A DNA stretch of 64,000 bases from Nocardiopsis algeriensis (GTDB lineage: Bacteria; Actinomycetota; Actinomycetes; Streptosporangiales; Streptosporangiaceae): NCBI RefSeq assembly GCF_014203695.1, contig NZ_JACHJO010000006.1:124001-188000 (forward strand). Direction: 5' to 3'. Shown in pieces: positions 42,648 through 57,439 of the stretch; positions within the stretch are counted from its first letter, which is position 1; each line of letters starts with the position of its first letter. A program made the translations under genes and the position numbers. Under the pieces are notes generated by a model. That model had not been told where the DNA came from. It ran no database searches and worked only from the letters and a program-made list of their open reading frames with translations.

Positions 42648-45352
42648 TGGGGACCCGGGCGCGCCGCCTGCTGCTGGCCGGGGTGGGGATCCTCTTCCTG
42701 GTCCACCTCGTCTGCATCGGCATCCCGCTGGGGGAGGAGACCGTGGCGGCGGCGCTCGGGGAATGGCCCGGAACCGTCGCCGCGGGCGCGGCCGGCATCT
42801 CCCTGCTCCGGGCCGCGCGCCTCTGGGAGCGGGGCGGGACCGGGCACGGCGGCGGTTCCGACGGCGTGGACGGGGGCGCCGCGCTGCGCAACCTGGGCTT
42901 CGCAGCCCTGGCCTGGTGCGCGGGCGGCCTCACCCACGGGATCACCCGCCTGTTCGTCTCCGACTCGATCCTGTCCCTGACGCTGGGCGACCTGTTCCTG
43001 CTCGCCGCGCTGCCCCTGTTCGCGGTGGGCTTCACCCGCCTCGCCCCCTGGCCGGGCGGGATACGGACCGCCCTGCGGCACATCACCGACAGCTACGTGT
43101 GCGCCGCGGCGGTGTTCTCCGTGGTGTGGCTGCTGGTGTTCTCCCCGCTGTACCGGGAGCTGGGGGAAGGCGCCGGATTCCTGGGCTTCGCGCTGGTCTA
43201 CCCGGTCGCCGACATCGCCGTCCTGTGCCTGCTCGTCCCGCTGGTGTTCATGTCGCCGCACAGCATGCGGCGGGTGGTGCTGCCGGCGATCGGCGCCTTC
43301 GCCCTCATCACCGCCGCGGACCTGGTGGGGGCGGTCACCCGCCTGACCGGACCCGCCGTGGCGGGGGGCATCGAGCACCCGCTGAAACTCCTCGGATTCC
43401 TCGTGCTGGGGGCGCTGCCGTGGCTGGTGGGGCACCGGCCGGGGTCGGAGCCGCGCCGGATCACCGGGCGGGGCCTGTACCGGTTCGCCCCCGAGCTCGC
43501 CGCGGTCGGGGCGGTGGCCGTGGCCGCCGTGGCCCTGACCGTCTCGGGGCTGGGCCTGCCGGGGGTGGCCCCGGTGCTGCCGCTGGCCGCGGGCACGGCG
43601 GTGCTGGCCCTGCTGGTGCGGATGCTGGGCATGATGGAGGAGAACGCGACCCTGGCGCGCATGGTGCGCAACCGCGAGATCCACTTCCACGAGCTGGCGC
43701 GCAACAGCGGCGACGTCGTCCTCGTCCTGGACCGGGACGGCGGCGTGGACTACGTCAGCCCCGGCACCGCGGAGGCCTTCGGGTACCGGGTCGACGACGT
43801 GCTGGCCGCGCCGGTGACCTCCCTGCTCCACCCCGAGGACCTGGAGCGCACGAAGGAGGTGGGCGAGCTGTTCACGGGCTGCGCGGGACAGGGCGTGCAC
43901 CTGCGACTGCGGGTGCGGGCCGCGGACGGGACGTGGCGGCACACCGAGTCGACGGTGTCCCTGTACGAGCAGCCCGGCGAGCCGGACCGGCTCCTAGTGA
44001 CCACCCGCGACATCAGCGCCCAGGTGGCGCTGCAGAACGAGGTGGAGCACCTGACCTTCCACGACGGCGTGACGGGCCTGCCCAACCGGGCCTACCTGGA
44101 GCAGCGCGCCGGCGACGTGCTCGCGCACCGGGTGATCAGCGACGACGCCGCGGGGACGGTCGCGGTGGTCTTCCTGGACCTGGACGGCTTCACGGCGGTC
44201 AACGACGCCGCGGGGCACGCCGGCGGCGACCACGTGCTGTCGCAGGCGGCCCGCAGGCTGCGGGGGGAGCTGGACTCGAACGCGACCCTGGCCCGCTGGG
44301 GCGGCGACGAGTTCGCCGTCCTGGTGGAGGAGGCGCCCAAGGCCCAGCGGGTGGTGGACCTGGCCGAGCGGCTGGGCCGGGTGATCGCCTCCGAGCCGTT
44401 CCAGACCGCCGACCGCGAGATGGTGCTGACCGCCAGCATCGGGGTGGCGTTCGCCGAGACCGGTACCGGCAGCGGCGAGCTGCTGCGCAACGCCGACGTG
44501 GCCCTGACCCGGGCCAAGGAGGGGGGCCCCGGCACGGTCGAGGTGTACGCGGCCCACATGCACGACAAGGTGCTCTCCCGCCTGGAGCTCCAGGTCCGGC
44601 TGCGCCGGGCCCTGGCCGAGGGCGAGTTCTACCTGGAGTACCAGCCGGTGGTGGACCTGGGCACCTCGCAGGTGACCTCGGTGGAGGCCCTGGTGCGCTG
44701 GGGCCGGGACGGCGAGGCCGTGGGTCCCGACGCGTTCCTCGGCGCGGCCGAGGAATCGGGGCTGATCGTCCCCCTGGGGGAGTGGATCCTGCGGGAGGCG
44801 TGCGAGAAGGTCTCCGTGTGGCGGCTCTCGGACTGGGACATCGCCCTGTCGGTGAACCTGTCGCCGCGCCAGGTCCTCTCGCCCCGGTTCGTGGAGACGG
44901 TGGAGCGGATCCTGGCGGAGACGGGGCTCTCCGCCGAGTTCCTCACCCTGGAGGTCGACGAGGAGATCCTGCTCGACAACGGGGGAGAGGCCGTCCAGCG
45001 GCTCGCGGAGCTGCGTGAGCTGGGTGTGCAGCTGGCCATCGACGACTACGGGATGGGCTACGCCTCGCTGGCGCACCTGCGCAGGCTGAGCGTGGACGCG
45101 ATCAAGATCGACCCCTCGTTCACCGCGGACCTGGGCCGTGACGGCACGGTGACGCTGCTCACGCACACGATCATCCAGCTCGGCCGGGACCTGGGCGTGC
45201 AGGTGGTGGCCGAGGGCATCGAGCGGGCGGAGCAGCTGGAGCAGCTGCGGGCGATGGGCTGCGACCGGGGCCAGGGGTTCCTGGTCGCGCGGCCGATGTC
45301 GGCGGCCGGGGTGGAGGCCCTGGTCGGCGGGGAGGCGGGTGCGAGCCTCTGA
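42647..45352 (+). CDS. Membrane PAS-GGDEF-EAL cyclic di-GMP protein
   Basis: The protein has 901 residues. About nine N-terminal membrane helices (1-330) precede a PAS sensor domain (about 345-460: NSGDVVLVLDRDGGVDYVSP to RDISAQVALQ). The GGDEF domain has RWGGDEF (552-556) and no RxxD inhibitory site. The EAL domain (EALVRW, Glu680) keeps all expected motifs: VNLSPRQV, DDYGMGYASL, IKIDPSF, EGIE and GCDRGQGF. Both synthesis and hydrolysis of cyclic di-GMP are possible, in contrast to the first GGDEF-EAL protein at 31512. From memory this corresponds to cdgE of Streptomyces, upstream of ilvB. ATG at 42647 with GGGGAGG six bases upstream. Confidence 0.92.
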   Translation: MGTRARRLLLAGVGILFLVHLVCIGIPLGEETVAAALGEWPGTVAAGAAGISLLRAARLWERGGTGHGGGSDGVDGGAALRNLGFAALAWCAGGLTHGITRLFVSDSILSLTLGDLFLLAALPLFAVGFTRLAPWPGGIRTALRHITDSYVCAAAVFSVVWLLVFSPLYRELGEGAGFLGFALVYPVADIAVLCLLVPLVFMSPHSMRRVVLPAIGAFALITAADLVGAVTRLTGPAVAGGIEHPLKLLGFLVLGALPWLVGHRPGSEPRRITGRGLYRFAPELAAVGAVAVAAVALTVSGLGLPGVAPVLPLAAGTAVLALLVRMLGMMEENATLARMVRNREIHFHELARNSGDVVLVLDRDGGVDYVSPGTAEAFGYRVDDVLAAPVTSLLHPEDLERTKEVGELFTGCAGQGVHLRLRVRAADGTWRHTESTVSLYEQPGEPDRLLVTTRDISAQVALQNEVEHLTFHDGVTGLPNRAYLEQRAGDVLAHRVISDDAAGTVAVVFLDLDGFTAVNDAAGHAGGDHVLSQAARRLRGELDSNATLARWGGDEFAVLVEEAPKAQRVVDLAERLGRVIASEPFQTADREMVLTASIGVAFAETGTGSGELLRNADVALTRAKEGGPGTVEVYAAHMHDKVLSRLELQVRLRRALAEGEFYLEYQPVVDLGTSQVTSVEALVRWGRDGEAVGPDAFLGAAEESGLIVPLGEWILREACEKVSVWRLSDWDIALSVNLSPRQVLSPRFVETVERILAETGLSAEFLTLEVDEEILLDNGGEAVQRLAELRELGVQLAIDDYGMGYASLAHLRRLSVDAIKIDPSFTADLGRDGTVTLLTHTIIQLGRDLGVQVVAEGIERAEQLEQLRAMGCDRGQGFLVARPMSAAGVEALVGGEAGASL

Positions 45353-45474
45353 GAGGCGTCTCACCAGGTGGTATCCCCGGCGCGTCGGTCGGGGCGCACG
45401 GAAGGGCTCCTTCGCCCGTTTTCCCAGTTCACAGGGGGAGTGGCATGTGACGCAGGTCGCATTGTGAAATTTCT

Positions 45475-45491
45475 GTCTCATAATGTGAGAC
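45475..45491. promoter_or_regulatory. Palindromic operator GTCTC-N7-GAGAC upstream of ilvB
   Basis: GTCTCATAATGTGAGAC; its centre at 45483 is 48 bases upstream of the -10 at 45531 and about 61 before the predicted start of transcription, an activator-like position. The same palindrome with the same spacing occurs before cimA, and a shorter form before leuB. A plausible binder is an IclR-type BCAA regulator (NdgR in Streptomyces), whose gene is not in the window. Confidence 0.7.
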
Positions 45492-45506
45492 AAAAGGGTG
45501 ATCTTG

Positions 45507-45536
45507 TTGACGCGCCCGCCCACCATCGGCCAATCT
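45507..45536 (+). promoter_or_regulatory. ilvB promoter
   Basis: TTGACG (45507-45512), 18-nt spacer, CAATCT (45531-45536). Transcription is predicted near 45543-45544, exactly at the GTG of the leader peptide. Confidence 0.65.
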
Positions 45537-45543
45537 TGGGAGC

Positions 45544-45594
45544 GTGCAGAGCAACTCCCTGATTCTCGTACTTGGTCGGCGCGCAGCCCACTGA
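45544..45594 (+). CDS. ilvB leader peptide
   Basis: A 16-residue leader peptide, MQSNSLILVLGRRAAH, starting with GTG 45544. The run L-I-L-V-L makes its translation sensitive to charged Leu, Ile and Val tRNA. It resembles the ilvB leader known from Streptomyces (a peptide containing ILVLG). It starts at or next to the predicted transcription start and is followed by an attenuator hairpin pair. Confidence 0.85.
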   Translation: MQSNSLILVLGRRAAH

Positions 45595-45650
45595 GTTTCT
45601 TCTGCTGCGCGCCAACCCCTCAACCGCCGTCGGGCGGTGGGGGTTTTTTT
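45579..45650 (+). terminator. ilvB transcription attenuator
   Basis: First hairpin: GGCGCGCAG (45579-45587, inside the leader peptide) with CTGCGCGCC (45605-45613), 9 bp. Then the terminator: AACCCC (45614-45619) with GGGGTT (45640-45645) and ACCGCC (45623-45628) with GGCGGT (45633-45638), a three-base bulge, followed by a T7 run. This is the pause-hairpin / terminator order of amino-acid attenuators. The antiterminator pairing was not resolved. Confidence 0.8.
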
Positions 45651-45729
45651 ATTGCCGGACCAAGCCACGAGACAGACCCATCAAAGCCAGAGCCCCGTGC
45701 CGCTCTGGGCCCTCGCGAAGGATCTTGAG

Positions 45730-47490
45730 ATGACCGAGCAGATGACCGGCGCCCAATCGCTGATCAGGTCGCTGGAACACGTCGGCGTTGACACTGTCTT
45801 CGGTATTCCGGGCGGCGCCATCCTCCCCGCGTACGACCCCCTCTACGACTCCGCCGAGGTGCGCCACATCCTCATGCGGCACGAACAGGGAGCCGGCCAC
45901 GCCGCCGAGGGCTACGCCTACGCCACCGGACGCCCCGGCGTCTGCATGGCCACCAGCGGCCCCGGCGCCACCAACCTGGTCACGCCGCTGGCGGACGCCT
46001 ACATGGACTCGGTCCCCATGGTCGCGATCACCGGCCAGGTCGCCTCCCCGATGATCGGCACCGACGCCTTCCAGGAAGCCGACATCTGCGGCATCACGAT
46101 GCCGATCACCAAGCACAACCTCCTCGTCCGGACCGCGGCCGACATTCCGCGCGCCGTCGCCGAGGCCTTCCACATCGCCTCCAGCGGCCGCCCCGGCCCG
46201 GTCCTGGTCGACATCACCAAGGACGCCCTCCAGGGCGACGCCGCGTTCGTCTGGCCCGAGCGCCTGGACCTGCCCGGCTACCGCCCCGTCACCAAGCCCC
46301 ACGGCAAGCAGGTCCGCGAGGCCGCCCGGATGATCCTCGAGGCCCGGCGCCCCGTCCTCTACGTCGGCGGCGGCGTGCTGCGCGCCGGGGCCGCGGCCGA
46401 GCTGCGGATCCTGGCCGAGCTGACCGGCGTTCCCGTCGTCACGACCCTGATGGCCCGCGGCGTCTTCCCCGACAGCCACCCGCAGTACGTCGGCATGCCG
46501 GGCATGCACGGCGACGTCGCCGCCGTCGGCGCCCTGCAGCAGGCCGACCTCATCGTCGCCCTGGGCGCGCGCTTCGACGACCGGGTCACCGGCCGCCTGG
46601 ACAGCTTCGCCCCCGGCGCCAAGATCGTCCACGCCGACATCGACCCCGCCGAGATCTCCAAGAACCGCCACGCCGACGTGCCCATCGTCGGGGACTGCCG
46701 CGAGGTGCTCGCCGACCTGGTCGTGGCCGTGCGCGCCGACCAGGAGAAGGGCCGCGCCGGCGACTACGGGGCCTGGTGGCAGCACCTGGGCCGCATGCGC
46801 ACCACCTACCCCAAGGGTTACGACGTTCCCGAGGACGGCAGCCTGGCCCCGCAGATGGTCATCGAGCGCCTGGGCAAGGTCGTGGGCCCCGAGGCCACCT
46901 ACGTCGCCGGCGTCGGCCAGCACCAGATGTGGGCCGCCCAGTTCATCGACCACGAGCGCCCCGGCTCCTTCGTCAACTCCGGCGGCCTGGGCACCATGGG
47001 CTTCTCCGTCCCGGCCGCCCTGGGGGCCAAGGTGGGCGACCCCGGCCGCGCGGTCTGGTCGGTCGACGGCGACGGCTGCTTCCAGATGACCAACCAGGAG
47101 CTGGCCACCTGCGCCGTTGAGAACATCCCGATCAAGGTCGCCCTGGTCAACAACGGCAACCTGGGCATGGTGCGCCAGTGGCAGACCCTGTTCTACGAGG
47201 GCCGCTACTCCAACACCGACCTGCAGACGTCCCCCAGGGACGAGAAGATCCGGATTCCGGACTTCGTCAAGCTGGCCGAGGCGTACGGTTGTGTCGGCCT
47301 GCGGTGCGAGCGCGCCGAGGACGTCGATGCCACCATCGAGAAGGCCATGGCGATCGACGACGTCCCGGTCGTCGTCGACTTCACCGTCAACCACGACGCG
47401 ATGGTCTGGCCCATGGTCGGACCCGGCGTCAGCAACGACGAGATCCAGTACGCGCGCGACATGGCGCCGAGCTGGGAACACGAGGACTAG
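45730..47490 (+). CDS. ilvB: Acetolactate synthase large subunit
   Basis: The protein has 586 residues. It condenses two pyruvates to acetolactate (valine, leucine) or pyruvate with 2-oxobutyrate (isoleucine), using thiamine diphosphate and FAD. The activating Glu is in [16 protein letters not shown], the FAD region includes [19 protein letters not shown], and the ThDP motif is [23 protein letters not shown] at 45730 with GAAGGA seven bases upstream; the longer frame from 45637 overlaps the attenuator and is not used. First gene of ilvBNC. Confidence 0.98.
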
Positions 47491-47508
47491 AGGAGAAGCC
47501 GAACCACC

Positions 47509-48033
47509 ATGAGCAGTCACACGCTTTCCGTTCTGGTGGAGGACACCCCCGGTATCCTCGCCCGCGCCTCCTCTCTGTTCTCCCGCCGCGGTTTCAACAT
47601 CGACTCGCTCAGTGTCAGCACGACCGAGTACCCCGGACTGTCCAGGATGACAATCGTGGTCAACTGCGACCTCCACCCCTTGGAGCAGGTGACCAAACAG
47701 CTCAACAAGCTGGTCAACGTCGTCAAGATCGTGGAGATGGACACCACCGCGTCGGTCCGGCGCGAGCTCCTGCTCGTGAAGGTCAAGGCCGACGCGTCGA
47801 GCCGCACCCACGTGCTTCAGACGGCCGAGCTGTTCCGCGCCCACATCGTGGACGTCAGCCCGGACGTCGTCGTCATCGAGGCCACCGGCGACCCCGAGAA
47901 GCTCGATGCCCTGGTGAAGAACCTGGAGCCGTTCGGTATCCGGGAACTGGTCAAGTCAGGGCTGGTCGCCCTGGGGCGCGGGCCCCGGTCGATCACCGAC
48001 CGCTCTCTCCGCCCCGTCGAGCGCAGCGCCTGA
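47509..48033 (+). CDS. ilvN: Acetolactate synthase small (regulatory) subunit
   Basis: The protein has 174 residues with two ACT domains. The first (LSVLVEDTPGILARASSLFS) binds valine for feedback inhibition; the second starts around residue 80 (RRELLLVKVKADASSRTHVL). It associates with IlvB and is required for full activity and valine sensitivity. It is 18 bases downstream of ilvB with AGGAG in the gap, so it is translated from the same mRNA. Confidence 0.98.
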   Translation: MSSHTLSVLVEDTPGILARASSLFSRRGFNIDSLSVSTTEYPGLSRMTIVVNCDLHPLEQVTKQLNKLVNVVKIVEMDTTASVRRELLLVKVKADASSRTHVLQTAELFRAHIVDVSPDVVVIEATGDPEKLDALVKNLEPFGIRELVKSGLVALGRGPRSITDRSLRPVERSA

Positions 48034-48113
48034 GACGGGACAGGGGTCCGGAGCGAGCCGCCGGATCCCGCCACGCGCCCCCAACCAACGTGTCAAGCAA
48101 GGAGTAACCCCAA

Positions 48114-49109
48114 GTGGCAGCACAGATGTACTACGACGACGCCGCGGACATCGCGCTCATCCAGAGCAAGAAGGTCGCCGTGATCGGCTACGGCAGTCAG
48201 GGGCACGCGCACGCGCTGTCGCTGCGGGACTCGGGCGTCGACGTGCGGATCGGCCTGGCGGAGGGCTCCAAGAGCCGGGCCAAGGTCGAGGAGGACGGCC
48301 TGCGCGTCCTCACCCCCGCGGAGGCCACCCGCGAGGCCGACGTCGTCATGATCCTGGTCCCCGACCACATCCACAGGGACCTGTACAAGGACGAGATCGA
48401 GCCGAACCTGGAGCCGGGCAACGCCCTGTTCTTCGGCCACGGCTTCAGCATCCGCTACGGCTTCATCACCCCGCCCGAGGGCGTCGACGTCGCGATGGTC
48501 GCCCCCAAGGGCCCGGGCCACCTGGTCCGCCGCCAGTTCGAGGCCGGGCGCGGCGTGCCCTGCCTGGTCGCGGTCGAGAAGGACGCCAGCGGGCAGGCCT
48601 GGGACCTGGCCCTGTCGTGGGCCAAGGGCATCGGCGGCACCAAGGCCGGCGTCATCAAGACCACCTTCAAGGAGGAGACCGAGACCGACCTCTTCGGTGA
48701 GCAGGCCGTGCTGTGCGGCGGCACCGAGGAGCTGGTCAAGGCCGGTTTCGCCACTCTGGTGGAAGCGGGCTACCAGCCCGAGATCGCCTACTTCGAGTGC
48801 CTGCACGAGCTCAAGCTGATCGTCGACCTCATGTACGAGGGCGGCATCTCCAAGATGAACTGGTCGGTCTCCGACAACGCCGAGTACGGCGGCTACACCC
48901 GCGGCCCGCGCGTGATCACCGAGCAGACCCGCGAGGAGATGCGCAAGATCCTGCGCGAGATCCAGGACGGCTCCTACGCCAAGGAGCTCATGGACGAGTT
49001 CGACGCCGGACAGCCGACGTTCACCAAGCGCCGCGAGGCCGAGCAGAACGAGCAGATCGAGAAGGTGGGCGCCGAGCTGCGCCCCCTGATGAGCTGGCTC
49101 AAGGCCTAG
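48114..49109 (+). CDS. ilvC: Ketol-acid reductoisomerase
   Basis: The protein has 331 residues, the short class I form. It rearranges and reduces acetolactate or acetohydroxybutyrate to the dihydroxy acids using NADPH and magnesium. The nucleotide-binding motif is [20 protein letters not shown]; metal and substrate ligands are in [16 protein letters not shown] and [19 protein letters not shown]. The start is GTG at 48114 with AAGGAG nine bases upstream. Third gene of ilvBNC. Confidence 0.98.
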
Positions 49110-49274
49110 GCCCCAGCCCTTCAGGGACGGGACCGATGGGGGTAGGCGGCGAAGACCACCTGCCCCCTTCGCCTTCCCTACCGCGGCAGTAGACTTCAGA
49201 ACGGCCGTCCTCCCCGATCCGCAGGCTGGCTCTACCTGCGCATATCGGGACGCGCAACCCGAAAAGGAACCCCT

Positions 49275-50864
49275 GTGTCCAAACCCGCCGTACTTGTAGC
49301 GGAAGAACTCTCCCCCGCCGGAATCGCGCTGCTCGAAGAGGACTTCGAGGTGCGCCGCGTGGACGGCTCCGACCGCTCCCAGCTCCTTCCGGCCCTGGCC
49401 GACGTGGACGCGCTCATCGTCCGCAGCGCCACCAAGGTGGACGCCGAGGCCCTCGCCGCGGCCGGTCGCCTCCAGGTGGTCGCCCGGGCCGGGGTCGGCC
49501 TGGACAACGTGGACGTGGAGGCCGCCACCAAGGCCGGCGTGCTGGTGGTCAACGCCCCGACCTCCAACATCATCAGCGCCGCCGAGCAGGCCGTGAACCT
49601 CCTCCTGGCCAGCGCCCGCAACACCGCTCCGGCGCACAACGCGCTGGTCAACGGCGAGTGGAAGCGCTCCAAGTACACCGGTGTGGAGCTGTACGAGAAG
49701 ACCGTCGGCATCGTGGGCCTGGGCCGCATCGGCGCCCTGGTCGCCCAGCGCATGCTGGCCTTCGGCACCAGGGCCATCGCCTACGACCCGTTCGTGCAGC
49801 CCGCGCGGGCCGCGCAGATGGGTGTGGAGGTCACCACGCTCGACGACCTGCTCGAGCGCTCCGACTTCATCACCATCCACCTGCCCAAGAACAAGGACAC
49901 CCTGGGCCTGATCGGCGAGGAGGCGCTGCGCAAGGTCAAGCCGACCGTGCGCATCGTCAACGCCGCGCGCGGCGGCATCCTCGACGAGGACGCGCTGTAC
50001 CAGGCCCTCAAGGAGGGCCGCGTGGGCGGTGCGGGCATCGACGTGTTCGCCAAGGAGCCGTGCACGGACAGCCCGCTGTTCGAGTTCGAGAACGTCGTGG
50101 TGGCCCCGCACCTGGGCGCCAGCACCCACGAGGCGCAGGAGAAGGCGGGCACGCAGGTGGCCCGCTCGGTGAAGCTGGCGCTGTCGGGCGAGTTCGTGCC
50201 CGACGCGGTCAACGTCCAGGGCACCGGCGTGGCCGAGGAGATCAAGCCGGGCCTGCCGCTGACCGAGAAGCTCGGCCGGGTCTTCACCGCCCTGGCGGGC
50301 ACGATCGCCAGCCGCATCGACGTCGAGGTGCGCGGCGAGATCGCCGCCCACGACGTCAAGGTGCTGGAGCTGGCCGCGCTCAAGGGCGTGTTCGCCGACG
50401 TGGTCGAGGACGCGGTGACCTTCGTCAACGCGCCGCTGCTGGCCAAGGAGCGCGGCGTCGAGGTCAACTTGGTCACCAGCGACGACAGCAGCGACTGGCG
50501 CAACCTGATCTCGGTGCGCGGTGTGCTGGCCGACGGCACCCGCGTGTCGGTCTCGGGCACGCTGACCGGCCCCCGCCAGATCGAGAAGCTGGTGGAGGTC
50601 AACAACTACACCCTGGAGATCGGCCTGGCCGAGCACATGGTGTTCCTGTCCTACGACGACCGCCCCGGCATGGTCGGCAAGGTCGGCGCCCTGCTCGGCG
50701 AGGCCGGCGTCAACATCGCGGGCATGCAGGTCATCCGCGACGAGGAGGGCGGCCAGGCCCTCATCGCCCTGACCGTCGACTCCGCCGTTCCGGAGCCCGT
50801 GCTCGCCTCGATCTCCGCCGAGATCGACGCGGCCGTCACCCGCCAGGTCGACCTGGAGGACTGA
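49275..50864 (+). CDS. serA: D-3-phosphoglycerate dehydrogenase
   Basis: The protein has 529 residues, the long form. It oxidises 3-phosphoglycerate in the first step of serine synthesis. The NAD site is VGIVGLGRIGALVAQRMLAF; the catalytic residues are in VNAARGGILDEDAL (Arg), the Glu of FAKEP, and the His of VVAPHLGASTHEAQ. An intervening domain and a C-terminal ACT domain (VFLSYDDRPGMVGKVGALLG) allow serine feedback control. GTG at 49275 with AAAGGA upstream. It is separated by 165 bases from ilvC and probably has its own promoter. Confidence 0.98.
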   Translation: MSKPAVLVAEELSPAGIALLEEDFEVRRVDGSDRSQLLPALADVDALIVRSATKVDAEALAAAGRLQVVARAGVGLDNVDVEAATKAGVLVVNAPTSNIISAAEQAVNLLLASARNTAPAHNALVNGEWKRSKYTGVELYEKTVGIVGLGRIGALVAQRMLAFGTRAIAYDPFVQPARAAQMGVEVTTLDDLLERSDFITIHLPKNKDTLGLIGEEALRKVKPTVRIVNAARGGILDEDALYQALKEGRVGGAGIDVFAKEPCTDSPLFEFENVVVAPHLGASTHEAQEKAGTQVARSVKLALSGEFVPDAVNVQGTGVAEEIKPGLPLTEKLGRVFTALAGTIASRIDVEVRGEIAAHDVKVLELAALKGVFADVVEDAVTFVNAPLLAKERGVEVNLVTSDDSSDWRNLISVRGVLADGTRVSVSGTLTGPRQIEKLVEVNNYTLEIGLAEHMVFLSYDDRPGMVGKVGALLGEAGVNIAGMQVIRDEEGGQALIALTVDSAVPEPVLASISAEIDAAVTRQVDLED

Positions 50865-50878
50865 CCTTCCCCGACCCG

Positions 50879-50911
50879 AAGGCCGCACCGCATGATGCGC
50901 GGTGCGGCCTT
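50879..50911 (+). terminator. serA terminator
   Basis: AAGGCCGCACCGC (50879-50891), 7-nt loop, GCGGTGCGGCCTT (50899-50911), a perfect 13-bp stem followed by TGTGG. It lies 15 bases past the serA stop. Confidence 0.75.
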
Positions 50912-50966
50912 TGTGGCATTTCAGAGGAAATGTCGTCACGCCCATGACCAGTGGAAACACGCCGAC

Positions 50967-50999
50967 GTCTCACATCGTGGGATGCTCTGGTCATATAGT
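50967..50999. promoter_or_regulatory. Imperfect GTCTC operator and a -10 box before the 29-residue ORF
   Basis: GTCTCACATCGTGGGAT (50967-50983) matches the ilvB and cimA palindrome in its left half and 3 of 5 bases of the right half. TATAGT at 50994-50999 is a good -10 box. The site overlaps where a -35 would be, unlike at ilvB. This would be a weak member of the same regulon, if real. Confidence 0.4.
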
Positions 51000-51193
51000 T
51001 GGACATCCGATATTCTGAAGCCCTAGGAGTTGCACTCCGCCCGCTCGCCCGAACACGGGCCGCGAGGGCGGCCCCGCGGAGGACCCCGCCGGGACGGAAC
51101 TCTTTCTCCGGTCACCGCCGACCGCACACCCATCGCGCGCGCCGAGACCGCCTGTTTCCCGTCCTTGGTCACGCAACGCATCTGGAGTTTCAC

Positions 51194-51283
51194 ATGTACG
51201 ACATGGTCGAGTACCCGTCCGCGCCCGAGTCCGACGACGAGATCGCCCGCGCCCTCCAGGAGGCGCTGAACCGCCGCGACTGA
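51194..51283 (+). CDS. Small ORF, 29 residues, upstream of leuB
   Basis: ATG at 51194, preceded by TGGAG with seven bases of spacing, encodes MYDMVEYPSAPESDDEIARA and ends QEALNRRD. It is acidic, with a likely C-terminal helix. It is too short for usual gene callers but has a proper start region and a protein-like sequence. The longer frame from 50999 is Arg-rich and not credible. Its role is unknown. Confidence 0.5.
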   Translation: MYDMVEYPSAPESDDEIARALQEALNRRD

Positions 51284-51369
51284 GCGGTCCGTCGTGGGGG
51301 CGCGTCGCCCCCGCGGCGACTTCCGGTCCTCGGCCCCGGTATGGTTGTCTCATTCAGTGTTCATTGTGA

Positions 51370-51384
51370 TCTCACCATCTGAGA
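51370..51384. promoter_or_regulatory. Operator TCTC-N7-GAGA upstream of leuB
   Basis: TCTCACCATCTGAGA, a 15-bp palindrome with the same TCTC-N7-GAGA core as before ilvB and cimA. It lies 36 bases before the leuB ATG. A -10 like TATGGT at 51340-51345 would place it downstream of the transcription start, so here the regulator would act as repressor. A half site (GTCTC) is at 51347-51351. Confidence 0.6.
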
Positions 51385-51420
51385 AGAAGCAGGTGGGGTC
51401 CCGAGTGGATCAGAGGCAGT

Positions 51421-52479
51421 ATGGCAGCGCGCACGGTGAAACTGGCCGTCATCCCCGGTGACGGAATCGGCCCCGAGGTGGTCGCCGAGGGCCTCAAGGT
51501 GCTGGAAACGGCGATCGCCCCGCACGACCTGGCCGTGGAGACGACCGAGTACGAGCTCGGCGCCAAGCTCTGGCACCGCACCGGTGAGACGCTGCCCGAC
51601 TCGGTGGAGCAGGAGCTGGCCGGGCACGACGCCGTCTTCCTGGGCGCCGTCGGCGACCCGTCCGTGCCCAGCGGCGTCCTCGAACGCGGCCTGCTGCTGC
51701 GCCTGCGCTTCGACTTCGACCACTACGTCAACCTGCGTCCCGTGCGCCTCTACCCCGGTGTCGAGAGCCCACTGGCGGGTGTGACCCCCGAGGACATCGA
51801 CATGCTCGTCGTCCGCGAGGGCACCGAGGGCCCCTACGCCGGCGCCGGCGGCGTGCTGCGCAAGGGCACCCCGTACGAGATCGCCACGCAGGACAGCGTC
51901 AACACCCGCTTCGGCGTCGAGCGCGTCGTCCGCTACGCCTTCGCCAAGGCCGCCGAGCGCCCGCGCAAGAAGCTCACGCTCGTCCACAAGGACAACGTCC
52001 TGACCTACGCCGGGGAGCTGTGGCAGCGCACCGTCCGCGAGGTCGGCGCCGAGTACCCGCAGGTCGCCGTGGACTACTGCCACGTCGACGCCGCGTCGAT
52101 GTTCTTCGTCAACCAGCCCGCGCGCTTCGACGTCGTGGTCACCGACAACCTGTTCGGCGACATCATCACCGACATCGGCGCCGCCGTCACCGGAGGCATC
52201 GGGCTGGCCGCCAGCGGCAACATCAACCCCGACAACACCTTCCCCAGCATGTTCGAGCCGGTCCACGGCTCGGCGCCCGACATCGCGGGCCAGGGCAAGG
52301 CCGACCCCACCGCGACGGTGCTCTCGGCCGCCCTCATGCTGGACCACCTCGGCGTTCCCGAGGCGGCCCGCCGCATCGAGGCGGCGGTCTCGGCCGACCT
52401 CAAGAGCCGGGGCCACGGTGTCCGCTCCACGTCCCGGATCGGCGACGACCTCGCCGCCCGAGTAGCCGAGCAGGGCTGA
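51421..52479 (+). CDS. leuB: 3-Isopropylmalate dehydrogenase
   Basis: The protein has 352 residues. It oxidatively decarboxylates 3-isopropylmalate to 2-oxoisocaproate in leucine synthesis; with CimA upstream it also handles the citramalate-derived intermediate on the route to 2-oxobutyrate. Key parts are [32 protein letters not shown], the catalytic Lys/Asp region [11 protein letters not shown] and the metal-binding [19 protein letters not shown], then [21 protein letters not shown] at 51421 with CAGAGG upstream. leuA, leuC and leuD are not in the window. Confidence 0.97.
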
Positions 52480-52534
52480 CCCCCTTCCCGTCGGCCCTGC
52501 CCTCCTGCTCCGAGGCGCGGCCGGCACCGACACG

Positions 52535-52565
52535 AGGCGCGCCCGGAAACCCTCCGAGCGCGCCT
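52535..52565 (+). terminator. leuB terminator
   Basis: AGGCGCGC (52535-52542) pairs with GCGCGCCT (52558-52565), 8 bp with a 15-nt loop, followed by TTCGC. It lies 56 bases past the leuB stop. Confidence 0.5.
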
Positions 52566-52646
52566 TTCGCACGGGTGCGCTCTTCCGACAGACTAGATCC
52601 GGGCCGGCGGCGCTGCCGGCCTGATGCACCCGAGAGGACCGATGAC

Positions 52647-53765
52647 ATGACCAACGACAACACCACCACAAGCGGGTTGGCGTTCGACATCCAGCTCTCC
52701 GACCGGCGGCGGACCCCGCAGGAACGAGAAGCGCTGCTGGAGAGTCCCGGGTTCGGCCAGGTGTTCACCGACCACATGGTGAGCATCCGCTACACCGAGG
52801 GCAAGGGCTGGCACGACGCCAGGCTGGAGCCGTACGGCCCGCTCAGCCTGGACCCGGCCACGGCCGCCCTCCACTACGCCCAGGAGATCTTCGAGGGGCT
52901 CAAGGCCTACCGCCACCCGGACGGCTCGCTGGCCTCCTTCCGGCCGGAGGCCAACGCGGCCCGCTTCAACCGCAGCGCGGCGCGCATGGCGATGCCCGAG
53001 CTGCCCGAGGAGCTCTTCCTCGAATCCATCAAGCTCCTCCTCGAGCACGACGGCGACTGGGTTCCCGGCAAGCCCGACTTCAGCCTGTACCTGCGCCCGT
53101 TCATGATCGCCACCGACGTGGGCCTGGGCGTCAACCACCCCTCCCGCAGCTACCTGTTCCTGCTCATCGCCTCGCCGGTCGGCTCCTACTTCTCGGGCGG
53201 CATCAAGCCGGTCACGGTGTGGCTGTCCAAGGACTACACCCGGGCGGCACCGGGAGGCACCGGCGCGGCCAAGTTCGCGGGCAACTACGCGGCGAGCTTC
53301 CTCGCCCAGGCCCAGGCCGTGGAGAAGGGCTGCGACCAGGTCGTCTGGCTCGACGCCCGCGAGCACCGCTGGGTGGAGGAGATGGGCGGCATGAACCTGT
53401 GGTTCGTGTTCGGCTCCGGCGAGAACGCCCGCCTGCGCACCCCGGCGCTCACGGGAACGCTGCTGCCGGGCATCACCCGGGACTCGCTGCTGACCCTGGC
53501 CCCCGACCTGGGCATCCCGGCCGAGGAGAAGCCGGTCTCCACCGACGAGTGGCGCGAGGCCGCCGAGTCGGGCGAGCTCACCGAGGTCTTCGCCTGCGGC
53601 ACGGCGGCGGTCGTCACCCCGGTCGGCTTCGTCAAGAGCGACGAGGGCGGTTTCACCGTCGGTGACGGCACCCCCGGCCCGGTGACCATGCGTCTGCGCG
53701 AGGAGCTCGTGGGCCTGCAGACGGGCCTGCGCCCCGACAAGTACGGCTGGATCACCCGCTTCTGA
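52647..53765 (+). CDS. ilvE: Branched-chain amino-acid aminotransferase
   Basis: The protein has 372 residues, PLP fold type IV. It makes the last step to Leu, Ile and Val from their 2-oxo acids with glutamate. The N-terminal part has [14 protein letters not shown]; the PLP lysine is in [25 protein letters not shown] and [14 protein letters not shown] follow. ATG at 52647 with GAGAGGA about eight bases upstream. It is 167 bases after leuB, with a hairpin between, so possibly from a separate promoter. Confidence 0.97.
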
Positions 53766-53771
53766 TTCCCC

Positions 53772-53798
53772 GGGCCGCCCGGCAGGGCCGGGCGGCCC
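53772..53798 (+). terminator. ilvE terminator
   Basis: GGGCCGCCCGGC (53772-53783) pairs with GCCGGGCGGCCC (53787-53798), a perfect 12-bp stem with a 3-nt loop, seven bases past the ilvE stop. Confidence 0.65.
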
Positions 53799-53819
53799 CC
53801 CGCATCCCCCGAGGTCACC

Positions 53820-54317
53820 TTGTCCGACAACCCCTGGCCCGTCCGCGTCGCGCTCCTGGCATCCGCGGGAGTCGTCGCGGCCGGCATCGCCTACGGAGCC
53901 GCGGGAACGGTCTCCGCGCTGAATCCGCCCCCCGCCCCTCCCACCACCTCCGAGGAGGACGGGCCCCCTCCCGAACGCGTCACCACGTCGCTGCTTCCGA
54001 GCCCTTCCGAAGAAGCGGAAGAGACGGAGGAGGCGGAAGAGCCCCGAGCAGCCCAGGAAGCCCCTGCGGCGGGCACCGCCCCGGGCACCGGAGGCGGCGA
54101 CTCCGGCAGCAGCGGCGGCGGTACGGGCGGCAGCGTCCCGCAGAGCGGGGAAGGGGGCGCCGACCCCCGCGAGCAGATCCTGAACGACATCCTCAACTCC
54201 CCGCAGCCGCGACCTCCCCTGGAGAACCTCTGCGACCAGGCCTGTGTCGACGCCCACCGCGAGGCACAGGAAGAGGCGGTGGTCCCCGAAACGGCGGCGC
54301 CCGGCCCCGAGAACTGA
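53820..54317 (+). CDS. Membrane-anchored low-complexity protein
   Basis: The protein has 165 residues from a TTG at 53820 with GAGG a few bases upstream. One N-terminal membrane segment (VRVALLASAGVVAAGIAYGA) is followed by an exported region rich in Pro, Glu and Gly (SEEAEETEEAEEP, GTGGGDSGSSGGGTGG). The C-terminal part contains one Cys pair (ENLCDQACVDAH) that may form a disulphide. No family is recognised. It lies between ilvE and cimA without evident functional relation. Confidence 0.65.
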   Translation: MSDNPWPVRVALLASAGVVAAGIAYGAAGTVSALNPPPAPPTTSEEDGPPPERVTTSLLPSPSEEAEETEEAEEPRAAQEAPAAGTAPGTGGGDSGSSGGGTGGSVPQSGEGGADPREQILNDILNSPQPRPPLENLCDQACVDAHREAQEEAVVPETAAPGPEN

Positions 54318-54377
54318 GACCTCGGACGGGTGCGGCGGGGGCCGGACCTCCCTTTGTGTCCGGAGAGGGAAATCACA

Positions 54378-54394
54378 GTCTCGGTGGGTGAGAC
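54378..54394. promoter_or_regulatory. Palindromic operator GTCTC-N7-GAGAC upstream of cimA
   Basis: GTCTCGGTGGGTGAGAC; its centre at 54386 is 48 bases upstream of the -10 CACACT (54434), exactly the spacing found at ilvB. The seven central bases differ from those at ilvB while both arms are identical, which argues for a shared protein-binding site. Confidence 0.7.
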
Positions 54395-54433
54395 GATCGG
54401 GCTCTGAACTCCGGTTCTTCCGTTCCCGTGTGG

Positions 54434-54439
54434 CACACT
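54434..54439 (+). promoter_or_regulatory. -10 element of the cimA leader
   Basis: CACACT lies seven bases before the ATG of the leader peptide at 54446, so the leader mRNA would be leaderless. The -35 position (TCCGGT at 18-nt spacing) is poor, consistent with dependence on an activator bound at 54378-54394. Confidence 0.5.
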
Positions 54440-54445
54440 GAGCGC

Positions 54446-54487
54446 ATGCCGTCTCAGGTTCTCATTATCGTGAGGCGCGCCGGCTGA
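54446..54487 (+). CDS. cimA leader peptide
   Basis: A 13-residue peptide, MPSQVLIIVRRAG, with a Val-Leu-Ile-Ile-Val run. Such a run before an attenuator hairpin is the hallmark of control by charged branched-chain tRNAs. It sits immediately downstream of the -10 and runs into the first attenuator stem, like the ilvB leader. Confidence 0.8.
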   Translation: MPSQVLIIVRRAG

Positions 54488-54539
54488 CCGCGGACATCGC
54501 CGGCGCGCCGACCTCTCGTGTCCACGAGGGGTCTTTTTT
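54474..54539 (+). terminator. cimA transcription attenuator
   Basis: First hairpin: GGCGCGCCGGC (54474-54484, the last leader codons) with GCCGGCGCGCC (54499-54509), perfect 11 bp. Directly after it, the terminator: GACCTCTCGTG (54510-54520) with its complement ending GAGGGGTC (54533), one G-U pair, then T6 (54534-54539). GGACA (54492-54496) and TGTCC (54519-54523) are complementary and might form part of an antiterminator, which is speculative. Confidence 0.8.
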
Positions 54540-54591
54540 GTTGGCGCGTCCCGGTCGGCCCACCACAGCATCCACCTTCGGGAGTCCACCC

Positions 54592-56202
54592 ATGAGGGAC
54601 GACAGTTTCCACGTCTTCGACACCACGTTGCGCGACGGGGCCCAGCGCGAGGGGATCAACCTCCGGGTCTCCGACAAGCTGGCCATCGCCCAGCTGCTGG
54701 ACGACTTCGGGGTGGCGTTCATCGAGGGAGGGTGGCCGGGGGCGAACCCCAAGGACACCGAGTTCTTCCAGCGCGCTTCACGAGAGCTGACGCTGAGGCA
54801 CGCGCAACTCACCGCGTTCGGCGCGACCCGCCGGGCCGGTGGGAAGGCCGCCGACGATCCCCAGGTGGCCGCCCTGCGCGACAGCGGCGCACCGGTCGTC
54901 ACCCTTGTCGCCAAGAGTGACGACCGGCACGTCGAACGCGCACTGCGCACGACCCTCGACGAGAACCTCGCCATGGTCGCCGACACGGTGTCCTACCTGC
55001 GCGAGCACGGACAGCGCGTGTTCGTGGACTGCGAGCACTTCTTCGACGGCTACCGCCACAACCCCTCGTACGCGCTCGACGTCGTGCGCGCCGCCGCCGA
55101 GGCCGGCGCCGACGTCGTCGTGCTGTGCGACACCAACGGGGGCATGCTCCCCTCCGACGTCTTCCGCACCGTCACCGAGGTGCGCGAGGCGACCGGCGCC
55201 CGACTGGGCGTCCACGCCCAGGACGACACCGGCTGCGCGGTCGCCAACACCCTCGCCGCCGTCGAGGCGGGCGCCACCCACGTGCAGTGCACCGCCAACG
55301 GCTACGGCGAGCGCGTGGGCAACGCCAACCTCTTCTCCGTGGTGGGGGCGCTGGCCCTCAAGCACGGCCGCGACGTCCTGCCCGAGGGCTGCCTGGGCGA
55401 GATGACGCGGGTCTCGCACGCCATCGCCGAGATCGTCAACCTGGCGCCGGACACCCACCAGCCCTACGTGGGGGTGTCGGCGTTCGCGCACAAGGCGGGC
55501 CTGCACGCCTCCGCCATCAAGGTCGACCCCGACCTGTACCAGCACACCGACCCCGAGCTGGTCGGCAACTCCATGCGCATGCTCGTCTCCGACATGGCCG
55601 GGCGCGCCTCGATCGAGCTCAAGGCCAAGGAGTTGGGCCTGGACCTGTCCGGGGACCGCACCCTGTCGGGCCGGGTGGTGGACCGGGTCAAGGGCCTGGA
55701 GCTGTCCGGCTACAGCTTCGAGGCGGCCGACGCCTCCCTGGAGCTGCTGCTGCGCGAGGAGATGGGCCGGCCGGTCCGCTACTTCGGGACCGAGTCGTGG
55801 CGGGTCCTCACCGAGCGCCGCCCGCGCAAGGACACGAGCCCGCTGACCAGCGAGTACGAGAGCCTCACCGAGGCGACCGTGAAGCTGACGGTCAAGGGCG
55901 AGCGCGTCATCGCCACCGCGGAGGGCAACGGCCCGGTCAACGCGCTGGACCGTGCGCTGCGCTCCTCGATGGAGGGTGTCTACCCCGAGCTGGCACGGCT
56001 GGAGCTGACCGACTACAAGGTCCGCATCCTGGAGGGCAGCTCGGGCACCAACGCCATCACCCGCACGCTCATCACCTTCGGCGACGGCGCGGGGGAGTGG
56101 ACCACGGTGGGCGTGGGCGCCAACGTGGTGGACGCCTCGTGGGTCGCCCTGGAGCAGGCCTTCACCTACGGCCTCCTCCGGCAGGGCTACCCCCAGGAGT
56201 AG
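54592..56202 (+). CDS. cimA: (R)-citramalate synthase
   Basis: The protein has 536 residues. It condenses acetyl-CoA with pyruvate to citramalate, the first step of threonine-independent isoleucine synthesis. The HMGL-like TIM barrel has FDTTLRDGAQREGINL, the metal-binding VHAQDDTGCAVAN and VQCTANGYGERVGNANL, then GLHASAIKVDP. A C-terminal LeuA-like regulatory domain (from KLTVKGERVIATAEGNGPVNALDRAL) usually binds the end product. Length and the GWPGANPKD motif fit CimA rather than 2-isopropylmalate synthase or homocitrate synthase. ATG at 54592 with GGGAG eight bases upstream. The BCAA attenuator upstream supports the assignment. Confidence 0.93.
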   Translation: MRDDSFHVFDTTLRDGAQREGINLRVSDKLAIAQLLDDFGVAFIEGGWPGANPKDTEFFQRASRELTLRHAQLTAFGATRRAGGKAADDPQVAALRDSGAPVVTLVAKSDDRHVERALRTTLDENLAMVADTVSYLREHGQRVFVDCEHFFDGYRHNPSYALDVVRAAAEAGADVVVLCDTNGGMLPSDVFRTVTEVREATGARLGVHAQDDTGCAVANTLAAVEAGATHVQCTANGYGERVGNANLFSVVGALALKHGRDVLPEGCLGEMTRVSHAIAEIVNLAPDTHQPYVGVSAFAHKAGLHASAIKVDPDLYQHTDPELVGNSMRMLVSDMAGRASIELKAKELGLDLSGDRTLSGRVVDRVKGLELSGYSFEAADASLELLLREEMGRPVRYFGTESWRVLTERRPRKDTSPLTSEYESLTEATVKLTVKGERVIATAEGNGPVNALDRALRSSMEGVYPELARLELTDYKVRILEGSSGTNAITRTLITFGDGAGEWTTVGVGANVVDASWVALEQAFTYGLLRQGYPQE

Positions 56203-56214
56203 ACCCTGCGGCGA

Positions 56215-56259
56215 GGGGCCCTCCGTCCGAACCCGAGAACCGGACAGAGGGCCCCTTTT
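56215..56259 (+). terminator. cimA terminator
   Basis: GGGGCCCTC-GTCC (56215-56228) pairs with GGAC-GAGGGCCCC (56242-56255) with one mismatch inside, followed by TTTT. It lies 12 bases past the cimA stop. Confidence 0.75.
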
Positions 56260-56515
56260 GTGTACCCATTTCCCTGGAGGCAACTTTGAGTGAGTAAGTG
56301 CTTACCTGCAAGCCATAGACCGTGTGTCCCACATCACCCGATACTTCAACCTTTGGGAAAGTGCGCGGACACGAACGGTGAAAAGTGCTGGTCATAACCC
56401 GGATGCGTTCTCGTGTTGGGAGCCGGTTCTCCTCGGCGAGGAGCGCAGGTCACCTGCCCCATGAAGACTGCGGGACGTGTCTTCACCCACCATCCCCCGG
56501 GGAAGGGAGGCGCGC
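56260..56515. other. Regulatory region of the sugar ABC operon
   Basis: About 250 bases with no gene. It contains an inverted repeat GTAAG-TG-CTTAC (56294-56305), which might be a repressor site, but the flanks do not extend it. No sugar-regulator gene is adjacent in the window. Confidence 0.4.
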
Positions 56516-57439
56516 GTGACCGCACCGGCACCCCCGTCCCCCGCCCCGCCGCGCGCCCGCTCCGAGAGGTTCGGGGAGACCGCGCTGGCGTGGGGCTTCC
56601 TCGCCCCCTCCCTCGCGGTCTTCGCGCTCTTCCTCGTCTATCCGCTCGGCCGGACCGTCTACCTGTCGCTGCACGGCAACGACATCATCGGACGCCCCGA
56701 CCGGTTCGTCGGACTCGGCCACTTCGCGGAGATGGCCTCGCCCGAGTTCGGCCAGGTGCTGCTGACCACCCTGCTCTTCACCGCCGGAACCGTCGTGCCC
56801 GGTGTGGCGGGGGCACTCGCCGTCGTTCTCCTCCTCGAAGGGGTGATCCGCGGGCAGCGCCTGCTGCGCGGTGCCTTCGCGCTCCCGTTCGCCTTCTCGG
56901 TGGCCAGCGCCTCGGTCGTCTTCACCGTCTTCTACAGCCCCGGCAACGGCGTGCTCAACGGCATCCTGTACCGGCTCGGACTCGACCAGGTCCCCTGGCT
57001 CACCTCCCAGGAGATGGCCCTGTGGTCCGTGTGCATCACCACGGTGTGGATGAACCTCGGCTACGGGGTGCTCGTCCTCGCCGCGGGGATCGGCTCCATC
57101 CCCAGGGAGGTCAACGAGGCCGCCCGCATCGACGGCGCCACCGGCGTCCGGCTCGCCCGGCACGTCACCGTGCCGCTGCTGGGGCCCCAGCTGTTCTTCC
57201 TCGTCGTGATCTCCACGATCAACGCCCTGCAGAGCTTCGGCCAGATCCACATCCTCACCAGGGGCGGCCCCGTCGGCTCCACGACCACCCTCGTCTACTC
57301 GATCTTCGAGGACGCCTTCGCCTACAGCACGAGCGACTTCGGCCGGGCCAGCGCCCAGGCCCTCGTCCTCCTCCTGGTGGTCCTGGTGTGCACCGCGGTC
57401 CAGTTCGGCGTCATCGAGCGGAAGGTGCACTACGCATGA
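56516..57439 (+). CDS. ABC transporter permease, UgpA-like
   Basis: The protein has 307 residues with six membrane helices. The binding-protein-dependent transport signature (EAA loop) is EVNEAARIDGATGVRLARHV near residue 200. It belongs to the carbohydrate uptake group 1 (MalF/UgpA) class. A GTG at 56516 with GGGAGG five to six bases upstream is chosen over a GTG at 56477. Its stop overlaps the start of the next permease (ATGA), so they are coupled. It forms the channel with the product of 57436. Substrate probably glycerol-3-phosphate or a sugar. Confidence 0.93.
   Translation: MTAPAPPSPAPPRARSERFGETALAWGFLAPSLAVFALFLVYPLGRTVYLSLHGNDIIGRPDRFVGLGHFAEMASPEFGQVLLTTLLFTAGTVVPGVAGALAVVLLLEGVIRGQRLLRGAFALPFAFSVASASVVFTVFYSPGNGVLNGILYRLGLDQVPWLTSQEMALWSVCITTVWMNLGYGVLVLAAGIGSIPREVNEAARIDGATGVRLARHVTVPLLGPQLFFLVVISTINALQSFGQIHILTRGGPVGSTTTLVYSIFEDAFAYSTSDFGRASAQALVLLLVVLVCTAVQFGVIERKVHYA

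Follow-up and report, generated by a model that had tools for sequence, protein, structure and literature searches.

The leader locus upstream of cimA

The window analysed here, a stretch of 64,000 nucleotides from the genome of Nocardiopsis algeriensis, carries a citramalate synthase gene, cimA, preceded by a palindrome, a -10-like hexamer, a small upstream open reading frame (uORF), a first hairpin (hairpin 1) and an intrinsic terminator (Table 1). The original prediction had described a 13-residue leader peptide, an 11-bp hairpin beginning in its last codons and a terminator with six T before the citramalate synthase gene; all three proved exact to the base on direct reading, and the TIGR00977 score bears out the gene assignment. 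Hairpin 1 can be read directly in the window as a perfect inverted repeat, and no spacer separates it from the terminator, which has 10 pairs, the most among the seven sites listed in a scan of positions 44000-57000 (chance expectation 3.9 sites). Because the -10-like CACACT ends 6 nt before its start codon, the uORF is probably leaderless. Between ilvE and cimA, on the same strand, lies a 165-aa ORF (53820-54317) that is rich in Pro, Glu and Gly and has no NCBIfam match.

Table 1. Features of the cimA leader and of the ilvB leader in the window
Feature	Position	Strand	Basis or remark
Palindrome upstream of ilvB leader	45475-45491	.	Exact-site scan
ilvB uORF, MQSNSLILVLGRRAAH then stop	45544-45594	+	Sequence; known kind of leader, for comparison
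ilvB leader hairpin, then terminator with T7	45578-45587/45604-45613		Sequence, terminator scan
Palindrome GTCTC-N7-GAGAC, candidate operator	54378-54394	.	Exact-site scan of genome
-10-like hexamer CACACT	54434-54439	+	Sequence; 6 nt ahead of leader start codon
cimA uORF, MPSQVLIIVRRAG then stop, 13 residues (ATG 54446, TGA 54485-54487)	54446-54487	+	Sequence
uORF isoleucine codons ATT and ATC	54464-54466, 54467-54469	+	Sequence
Hairpin 1 5' arm, GGCGCGCCGGC, inside the uORF's last codons	54474-54484	+	Sequence, fold, alignments
Hairpin 1 3' arm, GCCGGCGCGCC, abutting the terminator	54499-54509	+	Sequence, fold, alignments
Intrinsic terminator, GACCTCTCGTG..CACGAGGGGTC (54510-54533) and T6 (54534-54539)	54510-54539	+	Sequence, terminator scan, alignments
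GGGAG, likely Shine-Dalgarno of cimA	54580-54584	+	Sequence, inference
cimA, citramalate synthase, ATG 54592	54592-56202	+	TIGR00977, 635 bits (cut-off 450)

Folding the RNA of positions 54446-54545 gave -47.5 kcal/mol against a mean of -37.0 (sd 3.6) for shuffled sequences (z -2.9; 1 of 200 shuffles as good). As a single sequence the leader is moderately unusual and the fold is suggestive only; the existence of the structure is settled by conservation. Rfam, including its T-box models, gave no match in the window at the gathering score, and a lax search of 54300-54650 returned Atu_C8 as the sole match, at 17.9 bits against a threshold of 50.

Conservation in the window's family

Of 150 genomes sampled from the window's family, 143 carry TIGR00977, altogether at 145 places, and upstream DNA was readable at 144 of these, the copy in G001 starting at a contig end. 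A script that accepted leaders containing one of I, L, V, F, M or N followed by Ile-Ile, or three consecutive residues drawn from I, L and V, found leader and terminator together at 131 of the 144 readable places. Absence of the peptide and hairpins from close relatives had been named as grounds for refutation, and it is their presence that we find. At 11 of the 144 places no terminator was found (L015, L018, L024, L027, L072, L080, L096, L120, L122, L144 and L145), which counts against an attenuator; for L120 only about 300 nt of upstream DNA entered the terminator search, and L144 and L145 are second cimA copies in genomes whose other copies (L140, L136) carry the leader. Beyond the 131, L078 has leader and terminator according to an earlier script, and L073 has the hairpins but an ORF without an early stop.

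The 131 family leaders start with ATG (100) or GTG (31). A -10-like hexamer behind GG was located by script in 123 of them; CAGACT (66) and CACACT (35) are its usual forms, and in most cases its end lies 6-10 nt ahead of the start codon.

Breadth across the class

A covariance model, R1, was built from an alignment of 127 family leaders (A1). At E <= 0.001 and with stricter filters it has matches in 138 of 246 genomes from the class, and the window's family accounts for 22 of the 138. TIGR00977 is positive in 193 of the 246 genomes (E <= 1e-120), and an R1 match anywhere in the genome occurs in 131 of these 193 versus 7 of the 53 without cimA (Fisher p 9e-13). R1 gave no match in 62 of the 193 cimA genomes under the strict filters, a result that counts against the attenuator reading.

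The genes behind the matches were inspected at 48 loci, namely eight non-family loci among 30 listed and 40 chosen, for breadth and for second matches, from at least about 150 listed. By tblastn, cimA follows the leader in 38 of the 48 and ilvB in two (L199, L217). NCBIfam models placed leuS behind the leader at L198 and L207 and a bacterial-type leuA at L218, in each case on partial proteins scoring below the whole-protein cut-offs, and at L200, L203, L205 and L219 the following gene resembles leuS by eye. At L218 (G199:C93:9063-9160) the leader MKHLLLIESARH with its terminator layout stands before leuA, and TIGR00977 was not found in that genome at E <= 1e-120. At L195 (G318:C37:283432-283523) an Ile-rich leader, MFALVIIM followed by a stop, precedes not cimA but a small ORF that by eye looks like an ACT-domain regulatory protein.

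A scan of titled genomes with the CimA alignment gave 585 confirmed loci, of which the best 80 were used; 79 of these carry actinobacterial titles and one, L245, is entitled 'uncultured bacterium'. R1 matches 60 of these best 80 loci, always once, ahead of the gene and in its orientation, and among them are 17 of 17 Streptomyces as well as Kitasatospora, Micromonospora, Amycolatopsis, Pseudonocardia, Kribbella, Nonomuraea and Cellulomonas. The 20 of the best 80 loci at which R1 found no match again count against the attenuator reading; 18 are metagenome-assembled genomes (the 20 are L248-L251, L255-L260, L268, L271, L275, L287, L290 and L295-L299, with L298 lacking upstream DNA). When R1 was run on the window's own genome, the cimA leader was the only match at E <= 1. 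The Streptomyces cimA leaders L222-L235 are longer than that of the window, with 133-141 nt of matched RNA versus 96, the surplus lying in loop 1.

Covariation and geometry of the two hairpins

Four of the 131 family leaders (L060, L061, L074 and L088) were left out of the family alignment for their long loops; the other 127 make up A1, which was not fitted to a model. RNAalifold placed 19 pairs on it, eight of them changed on both sides, and across its 113 distinct rows 99.8% of cells are paired. Doubly changed cells number 122, against 37.5 (sd 4.1) in shuffles that do not keep relatedness, and at most eight when the partners are slid by one to three columns. Further pair types in A1 showed no excess (17 versus 16.0 in shuffles, a value reached by 113 of 500).

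The class-wide alignment A3 combines the window with 32 of the 38 inspected cimA loci and 51 of the 60 titled matches, 84 sources in all, and has 85 rows, one being the window's ilvB leader; having been fitted to R1, it leans towards that structure. In its 82 distinct rows the paired share of cells is 97.2%. Double changes affect 156 cells, spread over 12 of the 19 pairs, against 29.7 (sd 4.3) in shuffles that do not keep relatedness. The terminator helix is paired in 99.5% of cells in the class and 100% in the family. Covariance of the two hairpins, proposed at the outset as a check, is thus present both in the family and class-wide.

In all 84 cimA rows the gap between hairpin 1 and the terminator is 0-2 nt (0 in nine, 1 in 72 and 2 in three), and class-wide hairpin 1 begins at or within the end of the uORF; loop 1 varies from 4 to 60 nt in the same 84 model-aligned rows. 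An Ile pair is present in 77 rows. Its commonest place is 5 nt ahead of the 5' arm of the model (47 rows), and in 40 of the 77 the stop codon comes no more than one codon after the last Ile.

Codons and what the leader may sense

Every one of the 131 family leaders has Ile-Ile, spelled ATT then ATC or ATT, ahead of hairpin 1, a count that the script's own pattern favours. Outside the family a frame-blind pattern finds Ile-Ile beside hairpin 1 in 70 of 77 A3 rows (the exceptions are L204, L236, L201, L183, L233, L270 and L264), written as ATT ATT in 28, ATC ATT in 20, ATT ATC in 17 and ATC ATC in five; since all four spellings are used, what is conserved is the amino acid and not its spelling. 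A uORF was found in 80 of the 85 A3 rows, and in 76 of those 80 it has an in-frame run of at least two Ile, with the qualification that R1 has a sequence preference and so favours Ile among its matches. The same model nonetheless catches leuS and leuA leaders with Leu runs (MRARLLLTGPR, MRTGLLLIGPR, MKHLLLIESARH and similar), as well as ilvB leaders with mixed codons. On this comparison of leader sequences, the codons follow the product of the downstream gene.

The element had been put forward as a branched-chain attenuator, with conservation of a Val-Leu-Ile-Ile-Val-type peptide proposed as a check. Conservation and covariation support an attenuator, and the Ile-Ile core of the peptide is kept; the Val and Leu ahead of it are not, the family having Leu-Leu, Val-Ile, Arg-Ile or Ala-Ile in that position. 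Because the codons track the product of the downstream gene, and Ile is what is kept before cimA, we narrow the proposed sensing from branched-chain amino acids in general to isoleucine.

Tests for an antiterminator

An own-versus-cross comparison of pairing energies revealed no upstream partner co-evolving with either arm of the terminator. For the 5' arm the own and cross values were -8.54 and -8.82 kcal/mol (difference +0.29) and for the 3' arm -11.78 and -11.48 (difference -0.30, sd 2.27 kcal/mol), on a test that a fully conserved partner would escape. The positive controls behaved differently: the two real helices gave -3.77 and -3.63, with a class-wide range of -3.6 to -4.2 kcal/mol, and the family terminator helix gave -2.5 kcal/mol.

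Within the family, loop 1 carries a conserved GGAC that can pair with the last bases of the terminator and the U tract. Runs of at least six pairs between loop 1 and this 3' end occur in 94 of 131 family leaders versus 31.9 expected, and in 69 of 96 unique pairs versus 25.2. There is no such excess in the rest of the class (12 of 77 versus 15.2 expected), and the window's own loop 1 reaches a run of only four with the 3' side of its terminator. Pairing of loop 1 with the U tract is thus a possible lineage-specific antiterminator partner in the family, as far as complementarity can indicate.

Two other candidates were rejected. A kissing contact between the loop-1 GGAC and a GUCC in the terminator loop has both motifs in 100 of 131 leaders, but GCCC loops keep GGAC in five, with no compensating change. 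An upstream complement of the terminator 5' arm gave a mean duplex of -8.7 kcal/mol versus -11.2 with shuffled upstream DNA; the E. coli controls of this test gave -21.9 for thr (shuffled -7.8), -12.0 for trp (-9.0) and -12.6 for leu (-9.2), so that it is strong only for thr. A thermodynamic test asked how likely the terminator is to form once the 5' arm has been taken away; the 131 leaders averaged 0.98, with a lowest value of 0.82, but the test was dropped because the E. coli thr, trp and leu controls behave alike (0.97-1.0).

With no class-wide conserved antiterminator found, the support extends to a leader-peptide attenuator and not to classical attenuation. The frequent position of the stop directly after the Ile codons, moreover, means that a stalled ribosome and a terminating one cover nearly equal stretches of RNA, which is a poor fit to a classical position-dependent switch; our preferred inference is that ribosome dwell time decides.

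Proposed mechanism and alternatives

We regard it as probable, with good confidence, that the leader controls cimA in cis, as a translation-dependent transcription attenuator responding to the supply of isoleucyl-tRNA. Comparison of sequences establishes the uORF with its Ile codons, both hairpins and the terminator, and also how these parts are spaced and that they precede cimA. We infer that the uORF is translated, that stalling on it alters termination, and in which direction cimA responds. Transcription would start, from a promoter just upstream, at or near the uORF start codon. With isoleucine plentiful, a ribosome would clear the 13-codon uORF fast, hairpin 1 would close directly against the terminator hairpin, presumably helping it to act, and RNA polymerase would stop at T6, at about 54539. 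With isoleucine scarce, the ribosome would wait on Ile-Ile and cover the 5' arm of hairpin 1, which in the window begins 4 nt past the second Ile codon; hairpin 1 would be kept open, termination would be less complete and cimA would be made.

A bolder generalisation, which we consider tentative and on balance unlikely, is that Actinomycetia possess a modular attenuator that works with no antiterminator. It would join a very small uORF, probably leaderless and with codons exchanged to match the gene served (Ile before cimA, Leu before leuS and leuA, a mixture before ilvB), to a hairpin fused to the terminator with a gap of 0-2 nt, and the switch would consist in whether the hairpin closes, as set by the time the ribosome dwells and not by its position. 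Such a device, if true, could also account for the lack of a classical outcome when codons of the S. coelicolor ilvB leader were changed.

Those S. coelicolor substitutions, described as without effect on regulation in the available part of one study (PMC1262725), also lend themselves, together with the missing class-wide antiterminator, to an explanation in which the RNA element is real and the codons irrelevant, a protein or other factor binding the hairpins, or the hairpins setting RNA stability, while the uORF is passive. We judge this improbable in view of the retention of Ile-Ile through synonymous changes in the 70 of 77 non-family rows and of the Leu runs that replace Ile before leuS and leuA, as a passive uORF would not track the downstream product.

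The ilvB leader and a shared palindrome

The cimA layout had been said to copy that of ilvB, and the comparison holds: the window's ilvB gene is likewise preceded by uORF, hairpin and terminator, here with T7, and R1, although built from cimA leaders, scores the ilvB leader at 29.9 bits in a small search. The two genes also have in common the palindrome GTCTC-N7-GAGAC, whose 5' end lies 68 nt before the start of the cimA leader and 69 nt before that of the ilvB leader. There are 19 exact sites in the whole genome and none for a reversed-pattern control. In the family, the palindrome occurs with at most two mismatches in 93 of 130 upstream regions versus 80 of 1300 mononucleotide shuffles, and in 89 of the 93 the distance to the leader start is 57-62 or 67-69 nt.

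This near-fixed distance, and the sharing with ilvB, could mean that cimA is set mainly by a DNA-binding regulator at the palindrome, with the leader a minor trim. We think this very unlikely: the evidence for the palindrome is at family level and that for the leader class-wide, the genome has 19 exact copies, the 17-bp palindrome differs in length and shape from the 15-bp NdgR motif described for S. coelicolor in the available text of PMC4340878, and the two modes of control are not exclusive. Least credible of all is that the hairpins merely terminate an upstream unit of ilvE and the 165-aa ORF, which lacks an NCBIfam match and ends on the same strand at 54317, with the small ORF a product of chance, given that the -10-like hexamer and the uORF sit between that ORF and the terminator and are conserved together, and that hairpin 1 starts at or in the uORF end class-wide.

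One further copy of the palindrome, GTCTCATACGATGAGAC, of the ilvB flavour, lies at G000:C7:309277-309293 (L314:1501-1517), a few hundred nucleotides before an ORF that by eye resembles DAHP synthase of the aromatic amino acid pathway, a hint that the putative regulator of the palindrome may link pathways.

Relation to known attenuators

The E. coli trp, thr and leu attenuators share with the cimA leader a leader peptide, a first hairpin and a terminator. They have an established antiterminator; unlike them, the cimA leader has hairpin 1 and terminator abutting (0-2 nt), and no class-wide partner was found.

Comparable leaders are described in actinobacteria. Seliverstov et al. 2005 (PMC1262725) predict T-boxes for ileS and RNA elements for trp, trpS, ilvB, leuA, leuS and cys genes, the ilvB leaders being in Corynebacterium, Mycobacterium and Streptomyces; cimA is not named among the elements in the available part of that report. 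A reannotation of S. lividans has eight leaders, none of them before cimA in the portion available (PMC8079986), and the main texts of PMC10272879, PMC4833913, PMC2965389, PMC11109978 and PMC8914203 mention neither cimA nor citramalate. The last of these lists 79 premature transcription units in S. griseus. Attenuation of cimA had been suggested to be little documented, and we found no described case in the main texts of the open papers searched.

Actinobacterial ilvB leaders resemble the cimA leader in having a short uORF with branched-chain codons and a terminator with a U run close behind (PMC1262725, PMC8079986, PMC10272879, in the parts available). The ilvL of S. lividans is reported there to be leaderless (PMC8079986), as is likely for the cimA uORF, and Corynebacterium ilvB-II also has a hairpin, which in that case spans most of the uORF (PMC10272879). 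They differ in their codons, mixed Ile, Leu and Val in ilvB leaders and Ile in that of cimA, and in the antiterminator proposed for ilvB-II, between the P1 loop and the lower right side of P2 (PMC10272879), where none was found class-wide for cimA; the loop 1-U tract pairing in the cimA family does resemble that proposal. A related leader, from Corynebacterium ilvB, was tested in B. subtilis, where in rich medium it reduces expression of a lacZ reporter according to the available text (PMC10272879), which by analogy may count in favour of the attenuator reading for cimA.

Streptomyces leuS attenuators likewise have a leader peptide before a terminator (PMC1262725, PMC8079986, available parts); they differ in their Leu codons and in serving a leucyl-tRNA synthetase gene, and leuS leaders of other genomes were matched by R1. 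The LEU element of actinobacterial leuA shares with the cimA leader the use of codons for the pathway product, and is set apart by its description as a pseudoknot in which leucine codons pair with the Shine-Dalgarno sequence (PMC1262725, available part). In S. lividans, leuA has a leader described as lacking a typical terminator (PMC8079986, available part), and the L218 leuA leader, with its terminator layout, is unlike that pseudoknot. The cimA leader would be a known kind of device on an unusually broad scale, with a gene target that is apparently undocumented.

Significance

Citramalate synthase opens the route to isoleucine that bypasses threonine, and many actinomycete polyketides also draw on branched-chain precursors. 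A conserved isoleucine switch on cimA, if true, would give a handle on that flux. For the threonine route, the ilvA model gave eight matches in this genome, none above the cut-off of 378.75 (best 263 bits). The leaders collected here also form a comparative set for the old puzzle of how actinobacterial leader peptides act without a visible antiterminator, and since codons are swapped among the leaders of cimA, leuS, leuA and ilvB, specificity for the amino acid can be tested within one architecture.
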